DNA of 64,000 nt from Bacteriovoracia bacterium (GTDB taxonomy: Bacteria; Bdellovibrionota; Bacteriovoracia; Bacteriovoracales; Bacteriovoracaceae). The position numbers were made by a program, and so were the translations under genes. The notes beneath the pieces were generated by a model. It did not search any database and had not been told where the DNA came from. It saw only the letters and a list, made by a program, of their open reading frames with translations. The stretch covers positions 310,001 to 374,000 of the forward strand of contig JAUIIL010000002.1 in NCBI GenBank assembly GCA_030431635.1. Direction: 5' to 3'. Numbering within the stretch: the stretch's first letter is position 1; the number at the start of each line of letters is the position of its first letter. Below, piece by piece: positions 28,001 to 43,084 of this stretch.

Positions 28001-28043
28001 CATAAGATATCTAAGGTTAAAGAATTTTATTTATGGAAGTTAA
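25005..28043 (+). CDS. Membrane ATPase: periplasmic coiled coil, ~6 TM, AAA-type NTPase
   Basis: 1012 residues; TTG start without a clear ribosome site. Signal peptide to about residue 15, then about 370 residues of mostly charged coiled coil, as in the periplasmic part of MscK/MscM. About six TM helices follow (near 398-418, 452-470, 477-500, 524-543, 545-562, 598-620). The cytoplasmic C-terminus is an ATPase of the AAA/ORC1-like P-loop type: Walker A GDKGIGKTT (about 703-711), Walker B VVVIDEAQNM (about 775-785), then a winged-helix-like tail (EIESTTNLPKGIVRNAIKVC). An MscS channel gene overlaps its end by 11 nt. I know of no described protein with this full order. Confidence 0.6.
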   Translation: MLSCIIFIFSLAYADTDCDKSKTLESFKSSKQIILNQVKQLSLVSSGVVNRGVSLNNIFGHNFKLEESDSYIQKLQKLNEREDGIAPENRTLSYCLKKLKLKSYQNELIKISKEFNNLKIQLFNKNKNLNDLFKKSLEVQADLPEFQKELQKESIESQKIKKELEQDLLKSEGQSLKEKDFVKKEIIAYKNALIRYNIELIEKKLDNIKALEEKINYLSLKSQNLSLLSKEPSEQKQLEESFRKIDNIWLEVTQEDLYKIFNKKFSFSLPVVPELPRLKESSRELESELLELAKKREEAIFQRQQALKELTNKEKQELKFLNELILNINSLRSEYFSKLETHYIIRKILASEYLKLLKNEIVSSPYRVISFFYSKFLYVNEKISRGREGISELVFDFFKLLFIIFLFFSLKLSLDKIYTYLDDKQNKAINYYRNVKSLKVFSSFWVRIKPNFTDIIWILLIQFLISNSYFRDITILLKVANVIFISRVIKHLVILFLGSVSKIDIKSFASFKKKAKLTSEHFSNIYLAYFLTMIFIEATVGKVYIYSIFNIIVVLFSIYRLMNAASEWEDEFKTYLERKFSGVITEKIDFLLKYMPVKVRAILIFVSIVLLSALDIFIKATENFEISKKISANLFKKQIENIEAEDGADKKIPQEYKNEFKYNSITNFNEYVVSDKKLEASILLEIHEWFEEKSDEHSVVIYGDKGIGKTTLLKHIISNLEIEETSKVQCIYSKMPSKTTNKESLEAYLLSLFGQVCQRDKFDIYEIDSKLDKKTVVVIDEAQNMFLSQTGGFEAYYSLINLINLNTEKIFWAMSFNKYSWLYLDRAFGRNQFFRNVYELSGWSDTKIKELILKRHQKSPYKLSYDLLINATRSQDEMDRYASIESKFFKLLWELSRGNPRAALSLWVSALSRKNRGSFNVNIPKELELSGIEKLPDDLMFVIAHVLKHENLLSVEIESTTNLPKGIVRNAIKVCLERKFLYRDERGRYMIDISSQYGLIRYLRLKNFIYGS

Positions 28044-28833
28044 TAAAGATTTATCACTCTTAATTTTTGATTTTTTTAAGATAGATAAAATTTTTCTTTT
28101 TATCGTTTTAGTAGCAGTTATTATTTTAATTGTTAAAATTGTAAATATTTGGTCTGAAAAAGTTCAGAGTAGATTTTCAGGAAAAAGGTTAATTGTTCTT
28201 CAACTAACAACAATATTCTCTTTTACTGCTTATCTTTTTGGAATTTTAGGTATTTTTTATTTTGTTTTTAGACCTTCGAGAGAATTACTTGTTGCTTTTG
28301 GAGGCTCAGCTGCTGTTGCTTTTGGTTTCGCATTAAAAGATCTAGTAGGTTCAGTAATTGCAGGTTTTATTTTATTATTTGATAGACCTTTTCAAGTAGG
28401 AGATCGAGTTACTTTTGGAGATTCTTACGGAGAGATAAAGAGCATCGGTTTAAGATCTGTTCGCTTAAATACGTTAGATGATAACTTAGTAACGATTCCC
28501 AACTCTAAATTTTTAACAGATGTTGTTGCGAGCGGAAACAGCGGAGCCTTGGATATGATGGTTGTGACGACCTTTTATGTTTCTCTGTTTGAAAACTTAG
28601 AGAAGATTAAAAAGATTCTTCTTGAAATTGTCATTACAAGCCGGTTTGTTTTTTTAGAAAAACCAGTTTCCATTACTTTTGAAGAAGTTGCGGTTTCAAA
28701 CAATTTTGTGATTAAGGTCAATGTTAAGGCCTACGTTCTTGATGTTAAGTACGAAAAAGCCTTTATGAGTGATATTATTATGCGAGGGGAAAAAATTCTT
28801 CTCGAGCAAAATATTAAGCGCCCAATTCTATAA
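28033..28833 (+). CDS. MscS-family mechanosensitive channel
   Basis: 266 residues. Two N-terminal TM helices (residues about 18-37 and 52-78) and the pore helix AFGGSAAVAFGFALKDLVGS (about 91-110), followed by the conserved FDRPFQVGD and the beta domain (GEIKSIGLRSVRLNTLDD, then VTIPNSKF). These match MscS TM3 and the beta domain. Its first 11 bases overlap the ATPase gene, so the two are translated together and probably form one membrane complex. Typical MscS opens under membrane tension. High confidence for the family. Confidence 0.9.
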   Translation: MEVNKDLSLLIFDFFKIDKIFLFIVLVAVIILIVKIVNIWSEKVQSRFSGKRLIVLQLTTIFSFTAYLFGILGIFYFVFRPSRELLVAFGGSAAVAFGFALKDLVGSVIAGFILLFDRPFQVGDRVTFGDSYGEIKSIGLRSVRLNTLDDNLVTIPNSKFLTDVVASGNSGALDMMVVTTFYVSLFENLEKIKKILLEIVITSRFVFLEKPVSITFEEVAVSNNFVIKVNVKAYVLDVKYEKAFMSDIIMRGEKILLEQNIKRPIL

Positions 28834-28934: not shown

Positions 28935-30092
28935 ATGTTCTCGATAGAAGACTTCATGCCACATGGACACTGCTACTTATGGAATAAGTGGATACTACTT
29001 GCCCAAGTAGGAGGAGACTCTCTTATTGCTCTTAGCTATTTTTCGATTCCTGTTGCTTTAGGATATTACGTGATTAAGAGAGAGGTAATGACTCATAGTA
29101 AACTTGTTTGGATGTTTATTTCTTTCATCCTCCTCTGTGGAATGACACATGCTGTTTCAATCGTGACTGTTTGGTATCCTTTGTATCAATTAGAGAGTTT
29201 ATTCAAGATACTAACAGCATTAGTTTCTGTATTTGTTGCTGTTTCTCTTTGGCCTTTAATTCCAAGAGCACTGAGACTCCCAACCCAAAAAGAAATGAGA
29301 GAAAAAAACCGAGAGCTTCAGAAAGAAAAAGAACAACTTAGAGAAGCTAATATTCAGCTTAGAAGATACCAAGAAAAAGTCATAGAATCATCTAAGCTAG
29401 CTTCTTTAGGAGAGATGGCCGGAGGTATTGCTCATGAAATTAATAACCCTTTAAGTATTATTAATTCTTCAACAAAAGTTTTAGAAGAGCTTCTTAAAAC
29501 AGAAGGAATTGAAAAACAGGAAATACTCGATCGAATCAATAATATTAATGTTATCGTCAGGAGAATTTCTAAAATTATTAATGGGATGAAAAAAGTCTCT
29601 CGTACAGGAAAAAATGAACGAATGAAAAAATATTCGTGTTTAAAAGTGCTAGAAGATGCGATTAGTTTATCTCAAGAAAAATTTAAATGTGATGGTATTG
29701 ATCTTATTGTTGATTCAAGTGCCATTAGTGATGAGACTCTCGTTGAATGTCGTCCAGTTCAACTATCTCAAGTTTTTATTAACCTTCTGAATAATGCTTT
29801 TGATGTTATAAAATCTCAGACAAAAGATAAGTGGATAAAAATCATTCTTTCAGAAATACCTGATAGGAAAATTCAATTTGATTTTGTTGATAGTGGAGAA
29901 GGGATTAATCCCTATCTTGCGAAGAAAATATTTGAGCCTTTTTTTACAACGAAAGAAGTAGGAGAGGGAACTGGCCTTGGGCTTAGTATTTCATATTCTA
30001 TAGTTGAACAAATGAAAGGAGAGCTTTTTTACAATGAGAGCTATAAGAATACGTGCTTTTCTCTTATTCTAAATAAGGCCAAAGGGACATAA
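28935..30092 (+). CDS. Histidine kinase with ethylene-receptor-like copper-binding sensor
   Basis: 385 residues. The N-terminal 115 residues form three TM helices of the plant ETR1/cyanobacterial type: Asp28, Tyr35, Ile38, Pro39 (SYFSIP) and Cys68/His72 (CGMTH), each exactly three residues beyond ETR1 Asp25, Tyr32, Ile35, Pro36, Cys65, His69, the last two being copper ligands in ETR1. A coiled coil follows, then the H-box AGGIAHEINNPL (His about 169), N-box and G-boxes (DSGEGI, GEGTGLGLS), so it is an intact kinase. No SD precedes the ATG. Heads an operon with an HD-GYP protein and a response regulator. Confidence 0.85.
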   Translation: MFSIEDFMPHGHCYLWNKWILLAQVGGDSLIALSYFSIPVALGYYVIKREVMTHSKLVWMFISFILLCGMTHAVSIVTVWYPLYQLESLFKILTALVSVFVAVSLWPLIPRALRLPTQKEMREKNRELQKEKEQLREANIQLRRYQEKVIESSKLASLGEMAGGIAHEINNPLSIINSSTKVLEELLKTEGIEKQEILDRINNINVIVRRISKIINGMKKVSRTGKNERMKKYSCLKVLEDAISLSQEKFKCDGIDLIVDSSAISDETLVECRPVQLSQVFINLLNNAFDVIKSQTKDKWIKIILSEIPDRKIQFDFVDSGEGINPYLAKKIFEPFFTTKEVGEGTGLGLSISYSIVEQMKGELFYNESYKNTCFSLILNKAKGT

Positions 30093-30094
30093 AT

Positions 30095-31456
30095 TTGAGT
30101 CAAGATAGTAAGGTTCTCGTTTACCACCCAAATGTTTCCTCCGCCAAAGAGTTAAGAATTCAAATATCACAAGAAATTAATTGTAAAGTAGATATTTGTG
30201 TAAACAAACTAGAAGCCTATAAGCTTTTATCCCAACATAATTATGAGAATGTTGTTTTAAACTTTGAAACTCCTAATGAAAACTCTCTTGAATTACTGAA
30301 ATTTATACGCCTTAACTCTAACGACAGAAAAGTTATTTTTCTATGTAAAAGTAGTCGAGATTTAAGTGAAAGTTTTTCAGAAGATAAACTTGCTGAATTA
30401 GGTGTAAGCAGTGTTTTTTATAAAACGGAAGGTTTTAATCGTTTGCTTGATATTATTAAAGCACAAAAAAATAAATTTAGTATTGAAGAACCTATTTTAA
30501 AAAATGAAAAGAGAGAACCGAGTTTTACGAGAGTTAGTCGGAAGTTTTTATCAAGAAAAAACCCTTCTTTTTTTGACTTGTATGTGAAAATTAATAATCA
30601 TTACATCAAAATATTAAAGAGGGGAGATATTTTTGAAGATGAACAATTTGAAAAATATAGTGAAATTGAAGATTTTTTTATTTCAAGAGATGATGAAATA
30701 AACTACGTAAAACATTTAAATAATGTTATTGAAAAACTAAACCAAGAAAAAAAGATGTCTCCTAAATTAAGAAAAAGTGCAACTTGTTTGATAAGGGAGG
30801 CCGCTGAATCTCTTTTTAACTCTGCATTTTGCTCAAGATTAGAGCCGAGACTTTTAGATGAGTGTAGAACATTATGTTATAATGTTAAAAACTATATTGA
30901 AGAATCAAGTTCATTAAAAAATTTGTTTAATACGCATTATAGTGCTGAAAACACAGTAAAAGAGCATAGCTTTTTAACAATGATATACTCCATTGCAATA
31001 TCTATTAAAACTCCTTGGATTAATGAGAGAGTTTTAAGAAATATATCCTTAGCTTCCTTATTTCATGATTTAGGTTTAAAAAGGCTTGATTTTGAGGTTA
31101 ATCAGTACAACTTTAATAAGCTTTCAATGGAGCAGCTGATTGAATATAAAAAACATCCAGAATACTCAGTAGAGATGTTAAATGAAGCTGAAGATCAACC
31201 AGAAGCTTTGAAGCAAATTATTTTCCAGCATCATGAGTATATGAATGGAGAAGGATTTCCGTTAGGACTTTATGAAAGTCAAATTTATCCGCCTGCCAGA
31301 GTTTTATCTATGGCCAATTTTTTTGCTGATAAAATCATTTTAAATCAAGAGTCTCCAGAAGTTGTTTTAAGAGGTCTAATCAAGAATAGAATTAACCTCG
31401 AAAAGTTTGATATCAACGTTGTGAAAGCTTTGGTTGATTGCTTTAAAGCAAGGTGA
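30095..31456 (+). CDS. Pseudo-receiver/HD-GYP protein
   Basis: 453 residues, TTG start 2 nt after the kinase stop. N-terminal receiver-like domain (about 1-125) in which the phospho-acceptor Asp is replaced (VVLNFETPNENS), so it cannot be phosphorylated normally. C-terminal HD-GYP domain: HDLGL (HD), KKHPEYSVEML, and HHEYMNGEGFP (HHExxxGxGYP with F for Y). HD-GYP proteins cleave c-di-GMP with two or three bound metal ions; the main ligand residues look present. Between kinase and response regulator in one operon. A c-di-GMP role is inferred. Confidence 0.75.
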   Translation: MSQDSKVLVYHPNVSSAKELRIQISQEINCKVDICVNKLEAYKLLSQHNYENVVLNFETPNENSLELLKFIRLNSNDRKVIFLCKSSRDLSESFSEDKLAELGVSSVFYKTEGFNRLLDIIKAQKNKFSIEEPILKNEKREPSFTRVSRKFLSRKNPSFFDLYVKINNHYIKILKRGDIFEDEQFEKYSEIEDFFISRDDEINYVKHLNNVIEKLNQEKKMSPKLRKSATCLIREAAESLFNSAFCSRLEPRLLDECRTLCYNVKNYIEESSSLKNLFNTHYSAENTVKEHSFLTMIYSIAISIKTPWINERVLRNISLASLFHDLGLKRLDFEVNQYNFNKLSMEQLIEYKKHPEYSVEMLNEAEDQPEALKQIIFQHHEYMNGEGFPLGLYESQIYPPARVLSMANFFADKIILNQESPEVVLRGLIKNRINLEKFDINVVKALVDCFKAR

Positions 31457-31461
31457 ATGAA

Positions 31462-31911
31462 ATGGAAAAGAAAAATATTCTTCTAATTGATGACGAAGAG
31501 TTAATTTTAAAAGATATTGCTTTTTTGATTAAGAAGCATGTTAAGGAAGTCCATACTGCCAATAATGGGTTTGAGGCACTTGAGGTTTTAAAGAAAAAGG
31601 ATATTGATATTATAGTCACTGATATAAAAATGCCTAAGCTTGATGGCATTGAAATGATGAAGAGCATTCGAGAGAGTGGTTATGAAACACCTGTCATTGT
31701 TTATACTTCCTTTGGTAACGATCAAATAATAAACTCAATATTAAAATATTCTATTAATGACTTTATTAATAAGCCTGATATCGACTCCCTGGTCGAAGCA
31801 ATACTCTTAATACAAGAAACTGAAAATGCAGAGGTTATTAGGAAAGAAAAGTATGAGCAATTGTTGAAATCTTTAATGGAAAGTATTGATAAGAGTCATT
31901 CGAAAAAATAA
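31462..31911 (+). CDS. Single-domain response regulator
   Basis: 149 residues from the ATG at 31462, preceded by AAGGTGA 5 nt away; an in-frame GTG at 31453 lies inside that site. CheY-like receiver: Asp10/Asp11 acidic pair, phospho-acceptor Asp54 (TDIKMPKLDG), Thr/Ser switch (VYTS) and Lys/Pro near NKPD. A 30-residue helical tail follows; no output domain. It is the natural partner of the ethylene-like kinase two genes upstream. A terminator follows at once. Confidence 0.85.
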   Translation: MEKKNILLIDDEELILKDIAFLIKKHVKEVHTANNGFEALEVLKKKDIDIIVTDIKMPKLDGIEMMKSIRESGYETPVIVYTSFGNDQIINSILKYSINDFINKPDIDSLVEAILLIQETENAEVIRKEKYEQLLKSLMESIDKSHSKK

Positions 31912-31937
31912 AAAAGGGTCGGAAATCCGACCCTTTT
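31911..31937. terminator. Bidirectional terminator
   Basis: AAAAGGGTCGG, 4-nt loop, CCGACCCTTTT followed by C and T. It serves the response regulator on the plus strand and the small secreted protein gene on the minus strand. Confidence 0.85.
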
Positions 31938-31939
31938 CT

Positions 31940-40727: not shown

Positions 40728-41771
40728 ATGTTTAAAATTCTCATTACAGATGATTCAATTGTTTACCGCTCGGCCATCACACAGGCTTTATCAACTTCTA
40801 AATTAGAGTTAGAAATAACGACGGCCAGTAATGGTAAAATTTGCTTAACAAAATTTCAAAATTCTAAATTTGATCTCGTTATTACCGATCTTGAAATGCC
40901 TGAAATGAATGGGATTGAAGTGATTAAATCTATAAGAGAAACGAATAAAAGTGTGCCTATTATTGTTTATTCATCTTTGACACTTAAAGGTGCTGAAAAG
41001 ACGTTTGAGGCCTTAGCAGCCGGTGCAACTGATTTTTCTACCAAAGTTGAAAATGTTGGCGATATTGATGAGGGAATCAAAAAAATACAAATGGAGCTTT
41101 TGCCTAAAGTTGAAGGGATTTTAAGAGGATTTCAAGCTAAGCAAAAAAAGGAATTTTCACCTTCAAAATTAAACGATTTGATTTTAACAACTTTTAGACC
41201 ATCTCTTATTGCCATTGGTTCTTCAACGGGTGGTCCTGAAGCTTTGAAAAACATTTTTCGAAATATTAATTGTGAAATAAAAGTACCTCTTGTTATTGTT
41301 CAGCATATGCCTAAACTTTTCACAAAAAAACTAGCTGAAGATTTAGATAAGCTAACTCCAATTAAATTTAAAGAAGCTGAGGAGAATGAAATCCTCGTCC
41401 CCAATACAGCCTATATTGCTCCCGGTGATTTTCATATGACAATAAAAGATGTTGCAGGAAAAAAGGTTGTGAAGCTTAATCAAGAGGAAAAAGTTTGCTT
41501 TGTAAGACCCTCAGTGGATGTTCTCTATGATTCAATAGCTCCACTTTACCCAGGAAAAATTCTCTCTTTTATTTTAACAGGTATGGGGAGTGATGGAATG
41601 AATGGTTCTCAAACATTAAGACAGAAAGATTGTCCTGTTATTATTCAAGATCGTGAAAGTTCTGTAGTTTGGGGAATGCCTGGAGCCATTGCAGAAAAAA
41701 ATATACAAACAAATATTATGAGTTTGAAAGATATAGCACAAACAATTAAAGATTTGGCAGGTATAAGATGA
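40728..41771 (+). CDS. cheB: Chemotaxis response regulator methylesterase
   Basis: 347 residues. Receiver with Asp9/Asp8 acidic pocket and phospho-acceptor Asp54 (TDLEMPEMNG), then a methylesterase domain with catalytic Ser in GSSTGGPEAL (about 165), His in IVQHMPK (about 191) and Asp in GMGSDGMNG (about 288). It removes methyl groups from MCP glutamates. Divergent from cheA; the stop overlaps the next gene by 4 nt. Confidence 0.94.
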   Translation: MFKILITDDSIVYRSAITQALSTSKLELEITTASNGKICLTKFQNSKFDLVITDLEMPEMNGIEVIKSIRETNKSVPIIVYSSLTLKGAEKTFEALAAGATDFSTKVENVGDIDEGIKKIQMELLPKVEGILRGFQAKQKKEFSPSKLNDLILTTFRPSLIAIGSSTGGPEALKNIFRNINCEIKVPLVIVQHMPKLFTKKLAEDLDKLTPIKFKEAEENEILVPNTAYIAPGDFHMTIKDVAGKKVVKLNQEEKVCFVRPSVDVLYDSIAPLYPGKILSFILTGMGSDGMNGSQTLRQKDCPVIIQDRESSVVWGMPGAIAEKNIQTNIMSLKDIAQTIKDLAGIR

Positions 41772-43084
41772 GTTTTGCAGTTTATTTATTGAGCGAAAAA
41801 GTAATTGATTTAAAGGCATTATCCAAAGTCATGGGTAAACAGATGAGAACACAAAAAAGTTTACTCGAAGTTTTTATTGACGAACTTGAGATAAGTCACC
41901 AAATAATATGCCAACTCATAAGTAGTTATGAAGATCAAAAAGGAAAAAGTTTTCATGATTTTCTTTGCTCCTCAAACCTCATTAATGCCGAAATTATTCA
42001 AAAAGGTTTTGATATTCAGAGAGAATCACAAAAAAGTATTAGTGAAATTTTAGTGGAAGAAAATATATTAAGTCTTGATGAGGTAGAGAAGTTTCTTTAT
42101 GACTACGTTTCATTGAAACCTAGTCTTAAAAAAGAACAAATACCTTCTGATAATTCAAGTCTTAATGAGGATGAGGCACAAGTATCCTCAGCGGCTCTGG
42201 ACTCTATAAGAGAACAAGTTGAAGCGGGAGTCCTTGATCAAGGCGTGTTAGATGAATTAGAGAATTCAGCTAACGAAAAATCAGAAAAAGTTGAAGAACA
42301 AGAAAATGACACCGAATCACAAATCTCTTTAGCGGCTCTTGACTCTATAAGGGAGCAAGTTGGAGCCGGTGTTCTTGATGCAAGTGTTTTAGACGAGTTA
42401 GAGAGTTCCGCTAATGAAGAACCAGAAAAGATTGAGAAGCAAGAGAACGATAACGAACCTCTAGTCTCTTTAGCGGCCCTTGACTCTATAAGGGAGCAGG
42501 TAGAGGCAGGAGTTCTTGACCCAAGTGTCTTAGAGCAACTCACTCAAGACTTAAAACAAGAAGAAAAAGTTGAAGATAATACCGAACATAGTCCTGAGTT
42601 TGATATTCAAGAAGAAGAGTATTTTATTTCTAAAATTTTTTTAGAAAAAGTAAGGGGAACAGAAATTGATTCTTCTTCGATGGACTTTATTTCTCAAACC
42701 CTTAATGAGGGAGAAATAAAGAAATATTTAGGAATGATCCAACAGTTGATGAACGTAAAGGATATTGTAGAAGCAAAAACAATCTCTAAGGATTTAGCAG
42801 AGTGTTTTCACCTTCAAAGAGGGGGAGCTAAAATTATGAATGCCCTTTTACTTGAAAAATGCTTGGCTTTTTTAGAGAAAGTTTTTGATGGTTATTCAGA
42901 ATTTTCTGAATTAAGTGAGAACAAGAAAGAAGCTCTTGAAAACATTTTAAGGTTTTTGAAAAAATCTCTCGAATTAAAATTAAGTATTGAGAAAAATAAA
43001 TCTGAAGTTCATTTTTTAGATGAGAATGAATCAGAATTACTAACTCTTCAAGATTCCATCGTTTCGATGTTAAAGGTAGGATAA
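41768..43084 (+). CDS. Chemosensory-cluster protein with three 47-residue repeats
   Basis: 438 residues. The N-terminal third has MshEN-like helices (FHDFLCSSNLINAEIIQKGF). Residues 142-260 are three near-identical repeats. Each begins AALDSIREQV and continues with GVLDxxVLDELE, followed by an acidic linker. The C-terminal third is helical and Glu/Lys-rich, perhaps phosphotransfer- or receptor-like. It sits between cheB and cheR with no gap (overlap 4 nt, then a 4-nt gap), so it is likely a fixed part of the system. No known family. Confidence 0.6.
   Translation: MSFAVYLLSEKVIDLKALSKVMGKQMRTQKSLLEVFIDELEISHQIICQLISSYEDQKGKSFHDFLCSSNLINAEIIQKGFDIQRESQKSISEILVEENILSLDEVEKFLYDYVSLKPSLKKEQIPSDNSSLNEDEAQVSSAALDSIREQVEAGVLDQGVLDELENSANEKSEKVEEQENDTESQISLAALDSIREQVGAGVLDASVLDELESSANEEPEKIEKQENDNEPLVSLAALDSIREQVEAGVLDPSVLEQLTQDLKQEEKVEDNTEHSPEFDIQEEEYFISKIFLEKVRGTEIDSSSMDFISQTLNEGEIKKYLGMIQQLMNVKDIVEAKTISKDLAECFHLQRGGAKIMNALLLEKCLAFLEKVFDGYSEFSELSENKKEALENILRFLKKSLELKLSIEKNKSEVHFLDENESELLTLQDSIVSMLKVG
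42191..42545 (+). repeat. In-frame tandem repeats, 141-nt period
   Basis: Three units starting at 42191, 42332 and 42473. The period is exactly 141 nt (47 codons). The third copy is cut short before its acidic linker. Confidence 0.9.

Follow-up and report, generated by a model that had tools for sequence, protein, structure and literature searches.

An ethylene-receptor-type histidine kinase in a member of the Bacteriovoracaceae and its likely part in a three-gene signaling run

What might a bacterium of the Bacteriovoracaceae sense with a histidine kinase whose N-terminus resembles that of the plant ethylene receptors, and to which partners might it pass the signal? This question is raised by a gene in a 64,000-nucleotide stretch of contig JAUIIL010000002.1 (positions 310,001 to 374,000; Bacteriovoracia bacterium, assembly GCA_030431635.1), hereafter the window. 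An earlier note had read the gene product as an ethylene-receptor-type domain joined to a histidine kinase with intact H-box and ATPase, and both parts of this reading are borne out by the following features:

28935..30092, + strand: histidine kinase of 385 aa with an ethylene-binding domain (EBD); intact open reading frame with an ATG start, recognized by its Pfam domains
Within 28935..30092, + strand: EBD at about residues 1-115, linker helix at about 116-157, HisKA at 158-223, HATPase_c at 274-381
28935..29279, + strand: EBD with three membrane helices (PF25487 match, structural model, binding residues)
29016-29018, 29136-29138 and 29148-29150, + strand: codons of the copper-site residues D28, C68 and H72
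29433..29435, + strand: codon of His167, the predicted phospho-acceptor in the GIAHE box of the HisKA match

When residues 1-115 are aligned with the ethylene-binding profile (ETR1_N, PF25487), the match covers residues 21-115 with an E-value of 2.4e-31 and 108.3 bits against a cut-off of 27; as this profile was found in none of 14 control genomes, the match is not attributable to chance. HisKA (E 2.6e-7) and HATPase_c (E 5.8e-19) follow, with all diagnostic boxes preserved, namely GIAHE from residue 164 (containing His167), NLLNN at 283, DSGEGI at 319, FEPFFTT at 333 and GTGLGLS at 345. The seven binding positions of the EBD read D28, Y35, I38, P39, I65, C68 and H72 (pattern DYIPICH); they include all six residues singled out earlier (Asp28, Tyr35, Ile38, Pro39, Cys68 and His72) along with Ile65, which that list had lacked, and the SYFSIP and CGMTH motifs are likewise present. 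Those outside the copper site correspond to what we take to be Tyr32, Ile35, Pro36 and Ile62 of ETR1. The constant offset of +3 to ETR1 that had been claimed holds in helices 1 and 2 and fails in helix 3, where, by the ETR1 numbering that we assume, it is 0 (Lys91 to Lys91). The three remaining positions, D28, C68 and H72, match Asp25, Cys65 and His69, which constitute the copper site of ETR1 according to a published account (PMC12643061). Three hydrophobic stretches (29-47, 56-80 and 85-111) agree with three membrane helices, and an AlphaFold2 model of the EBD from 49 aligned rows has long helices at 18-48, 55-80 and 84-105 with a mean pLDDT of 87.6. Among structures in the PDB, a Foldseek search with this model recovered none at E <= 0.001, and phmmer with the EBD recovered no chains at E <= 10. 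Judged from its sequence, the window protein is a genuine member of the EBD family and a complete ethylene-receptor-type sensor kinase.

The closest experimentally studied counterpart lies on a plasmid of Azospirillum brasilense Sp7, in a frame that we take to be AzoEtr1 from its strain, size and layout. Residues 2-130 of the window EBD are 45.7% identical to this frame, and a local alignment of the two proteins gives 42% across 151 aa of the EBD and 33% across 231 aa of the kinase. The first 130 residues of AzoEtr1 bind labeled ethylene, as reported in PMC11819568. Based on the presence of all binding positions and the EBD identity to this ethylene binder, the window EBD is likely to bind Cu(I) and ethylene.

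We then examined the genes around the kinase, which are arranged as follows:

28033..28833, + strand: MscS-type channel gene (PF00924, 7.6e-21), 101 bases upstream of the kinase
30095..31456, + strand: HD protein with a receiver-like N-terminus and an HD-GYP-like C-terminus (Pfam, alignment), starting 2 bases after the kinase stop
31453..31911, + strand: single-domain response regulator of 152 aa (Response_reg, 4.3e-27), overlapping the HD protein gene by 4 bases
31910..31939, no strand assigned: hairpin of 13 pairs, 6 of them G-C, directly after the regulator gene and listed as terminator-like on the - strand

From this spacing we infer that the genes for the kinase, the HD protein and the regulator form an operon; whether the MscS-type gene belongs to the same run is uncertain. 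The hairpin likely marks the end of the run; one terminator-like hairpin was found against 1.2 expected from shuffles, and sigma-70-like promoter sites were not informative (16 against 15.4 expected). Elsewhere in the window, a tandem repeat at 42190-42534, with 2.4 copies of a 141-base unit that match at 80%, lies inside an open reading frame at 41768-43084. The regulator retains D13, D14, D57, T85 and K107; among 14 related regulators, T85 recurs in 11 and the other four in all.

We accordingly propose, with a probability of roughly three in four, that the protein is a bacterial ethylene-receptor-type kinase that uses Cu(I) to sense ethylene or a small alkene, thereby controlling His167 and phosphotransfer to the co-encoded regulator. 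Asp28, Cys68 and His72 of the three-helix N-terminal domain most likely hold one Cu(I), at which ethylene or a similarly small alkene would bind. Binding would alter the helical linker (about 116-157) and hence autophosphorylation of His167, which ethylene would lower by analogy with ETR1; the phosphoryl group would then pass to Asp57 of the regulator encoded at 31453-31911. Bearing on this last step, a small regulator gene lies no more than 100 bases downstream of 15 of the 55 EBD genes found in 65 loci of the phylum. Weighing against the proposal are the lack of a significant match among solved structures, the greater likeness of the kinase part to kinases of its own genome than to AzoEtr1, and the position of the EBD away from others of its family. 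To name ethylene as the ligand in nature for a bacterium of this sort is an assumption of ours.

Within the family, PF25487 occurs in 28 of the 129 genomes searched (27 of them over the cut-off), and across the phylum in 62 of 368 (59 over the cut-off), a sample that includes those of the family. The earlier note had let its reading hang on the Cys and His being kept in close relatives, and here the record is mixed: among 62 EBD rows from the phylum the Cys is present in 54 and the His in 59, both together in 54, Asp, Cys and His in 47, and all seven residues in 28. The most changeable binding position is Pro39, which is Pro in 33 rows and Ser in 17. Such variation near the ligand, set against the steadier His and Cys, favors the view that fold and copper site were kept while the natural signal is something other than ethylene, for instance copper supply, redox state, CO or a longer alkene. 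A PHGHC stretch ahead of helix 1, found in most rows, might be thought to offer a second metal site, albeit the scan that supplied the 81 named rows used that very pattern, which makes its conservation among them a circular finding. This candidate site (PHGHCYLW) is weakened by AzoEtr1, which has PHGVC, with Val at the place of His12, and yet binds ethylene, so that His12 is not needed for ethylene binding. Against a different signal there also stand the complete set of seven residues in the window copy and in 28 of the phylum rows, the resemblance of the window copy to a proven ethylene binder, and the scan of seven neighboring proteins, which revealed no copper gene among them. We consider a signal other than ethylene unlikely. 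A further clue to copper supply was discarded as uninformative: two Cu-ATPase genes of this genome score over the cut-off (TIGR01511), but so do 13 of the 14 control genomes, all of which have a match.

A second alternative accepts ethylene as the ligand and places the main output in the HD protein and cyclic-di-GMP instead of the small regulator. It draws on the close apposition of the HD protein gene to the kinase gene and on the retention of H291, H324, D325, H354, H379 and H380, which are found in 18 to 21 of 21 full-length relatives. Moreover, 105 of the 124 genomes of the bacterial family that were searched contain this protein family, and the genome of the window has six matches. HD-GYP domains that act as cyclic-di-GMP phosphodiesterases are recognized by complete metal ligands together with the HDxGK and GYP motifs. 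The window protein departs from this pattern in three places: a metal-ligand Asp is replaced by Asn408 (Asp in 11 and Asn in 8 of the 21 relatives), the Lys of HDxGK by Leu328 (Lys in 14 of 21), and GYP by GFP. In addition, the phospho-acceptor position of the receiver is Asn56 (Asp in 15 and Asn in 4 of 21). These alterations make a direct cyclic-di-GMP output improbable; since the receiver lacks its Asp and the HD site is partly changed, the HD protein is probably a partner or effector placed between the kinase and the regulator that would receive the phosphoryl group.

The gene neighborhoods of the HD protein place the window run in a wider setting. The 21 full-length copies comprise 20 regions, some of which end at contig ends, plus one further locus, L201. 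In 10 of the 21 the HD protein gene is followed by genes for a protein of about 530 aa and a small regulator, a common run of the family exemplified by L239:2729-6174 and nine other regions; the window has no such middle protein. Homologues of the ~530-aa protein were detected in 11 other regions, and the single copy scanned gave no Pfam match over the cut-off. Two of the 21 copies directly precede the regulator gene as in the window, and in three (L238, L249 and L201) the gene just upstream encodes a kinase. This gene order around the HD protein copies suggests that the window kinase heads a local variant of the common run. At L201:5851-7266 such a run is headed by a PAS histidine kinase bearing a degenerate EBD, with Cys replaced by Ser and Pro by Val, which perhaps represents a sensor with a lost copper site. 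A common origin of this run and that of the window might be supposed, as both have an EBD-like kinase before the HD protein, but 21 other HD protein copies outrank that of L201, and the EBD branch of L201 is very long (4.15). That the window EBD is itself a fossil, serving only as membrane anchor and dimer former, is most improbable: Cys, His or both are missing from eight of the 62 phylum rows (one of them a fragment without letters there), and the site-losing L201 heads the same kind of run, but both EBDs of the genome of the window retain all seven residues.

The second of these EBDs belongs to another kinase of the same genome (locus L161:6440-8351; 154991-155269 of contig C15, genome G000; 518 aa from the start used). 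Like the window protein it combines a complete EBD and a histidine kinase with a small regulator downstream, in this case a 124-aa regulator whose gene overlaps that of the kinase; it differs in its longer middle region. To place the two, 149 EBD rows including the window were aligned (loci L202-L205 gave no row), and a tree was computed from 102 rows and 124 columns, in which the deep forks are unresolved; it left out rows shorter than 85 residues, L141 and L144 as duplicates, and three quarters of the cyanobacterial rows, of which the named rows contain 55. L161 falls in a ten-row clade (support 99), mostly from this family, to which the window copy does not belong; a small regulator gene lies at most 100 bases downstream in nine of the rows, and the tenth, L190, lies close to where its contig stops. 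The window EBD is joined in the tree to L148, from a genome of the same phylum and another family (G241; support 95), and the remaining EBDs from its family sit apart from it in several other groups. The kinase part is most similar to other kinases within its genome and phylum (38-44%). Kinases L002-L005 of that genome (42-44%) are nearer to it than AzoEtr1 is (34%), so that the EBD may have been placed on a kinase recruited locally. Domain shuffling or transfer, in whichever direction, is likely.

The partner of the window EBD in the tree is not a fusion. Among the 55 EBD genes noted above, eight encode fewer than 210 aa; with L190 set aside for its contig end, seven stand-alone genes are left:

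L148:721-1335: stand-alone EBD gene (204-aa protein), 11 bases before a kinase gene
L152:6925-7326: stand-alone EBD gene
L154:7055-7477: stand-alone EBD gene
L155:434-805: stand-alone EBD gene
L156:7165-7560: stand-alone EBD gene
L163:6944-7309: stand-alone EBD gene
L165:6993-7397: stand-alone EBD gene

Each retains all seven binding residues, and the gene for a histidine kinase comes next, either overlapping it or no more than 11 bases away (recognized by blastp in six cases and by Pfam for L165). Five EBDs of this split type group together (support 91), and their partner kinases have an N-terminal membrane region of their own, about 110 aa long and alignable across all five. Such pairs provide a natural two-piece receptor for studying how the copper domain talks to its kinase.

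EBDs also extend to virus genomes. A tblastn search with the EBD in a set of 50,697 phage records retrieved five, all of Maribacter phage Molly, and IMG/VR contigs encoding PF25487 proteins (L258, L259, L260, L265, L266 and L270) add further cases:

L256:3929-4798: EBD protein of phage Molly, 289 aa (PF25487, 1.5e-16; binding pattern NYISICH; no recognized kinase domain)
L258:7971-9086: EBD fused to an HWE kinase, on an IMG/VR contig filed as viral
L259:7968-8387: EBD only, on an IMG/VR contig filed as viral
L260:7830-8645, L265:7893-8417, L266:7728-8537 and L270:7935-8357: EBD proteins without a recognized kinase domain, on contigs filed as viral

The viral nature of the L258 and L259 contigs (279 and 350 kb) is unsettled. 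The Molly gene lies between an amidase gene and a hypothetical-protein gene, the latter just after a BACON-domain gene and one other; the word "ethylene" does not appear in the main text of the Molly isolation paper (PMC8776804). Against BFVD, the window model scores best with a protein of 289 aa (TM 0.72, E 1.2e-3), which is probably this Molly protein. The L260 gene is near a terminase gene (phrog_38, 8e-30) and that of L270 near a tail-fiber match; among the neighbors of L265 and L266 scanned against PHROGs there was no structural phage gene. Some viral EBD genes thus stand beside tail, lysis or packaging genes, and one may speculate that a three-helix viral EBD is a holin-like or host-sensing protein.

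In a broader perspective, we tentatively suggest, while rating the whole scenario as rather doubtful, that the copper-alkene sensor of the Bdellovibrionota is an exchangeable module that occurs fused to local kinases, as a split subunit before a membrane-region kinase, or acquired by phages, and that through the window copy a predator would detect ethylene from plants, algae or their microbes, shifting the balance between free life and attachment to prey or surfaces via the HD protein and regulator. A predatory life is presumed from taxonomy, the organism sharing a phylum with Bdellovibrio MAGs and belonging to another family. In the literature seen, the bacterial ethylene receptors tested so far come from cyanobacteria and a plant-associated alphaproteobacterium, and the open-access literature searched yielded no description of such a domain from predators or from Bdellovibrionota. 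The complete site in the phylum of Bdellovibrio, together with the 62 of 368 genomes, suggests that alkene or copper sensing reaches wider than a story of plant partners, and the three-gene run presents a small, testable signaling system.

Finally, we compared the window kinase with the known receptors. Arabidopsis ETR1 and ERS1 share with it the three-helix EBD, the Asp/Cys/His copper site and, by a numbering that is partly our assumption, the other four binding positions; they presumably lack the PHGHC stretch. Unlike what is proposed for the window kinase, the plant receptors signal mainly in a kinase-independent manner, as stated in PMC11819568. SynEtr1 (slr1212) of Synechocystis is likewise a bacterial EBD kinase, with phosphotransfer to a regulator according to the same source (PMC11819568), and differs in sensing light too. 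The nearest parallel is the AzoEtr1/AzoRRetr1 pair of A. brasilense Sp7 (L257), which also has an EBD with all seven residues, a related HisKA-HATPase kinase and a co-encoded single-domain regulator. AzoEtr1 is described as a 525-aa protein with EBD, PAS and kinase domains and a single-domain regulator downstream, and the inhibition of kinase activity by ethylene seen in ETR1 is predicted for it as well (both from PMC11819568). A PAS domain separates its EBD from its kinase part, whereas the window kinase gave no PAS match; and the regulator gene of AzoEtr1 comes directly next, whereas in the window the HD protein gene stands in between, so that the two do not form a direct pair of the AzoEtr1 type. 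According to a review (PMC7700396), many Proteobacteria and Cyanobacteria contain EBDs. The window kinase is a new member of an already known family of EBD kinases.
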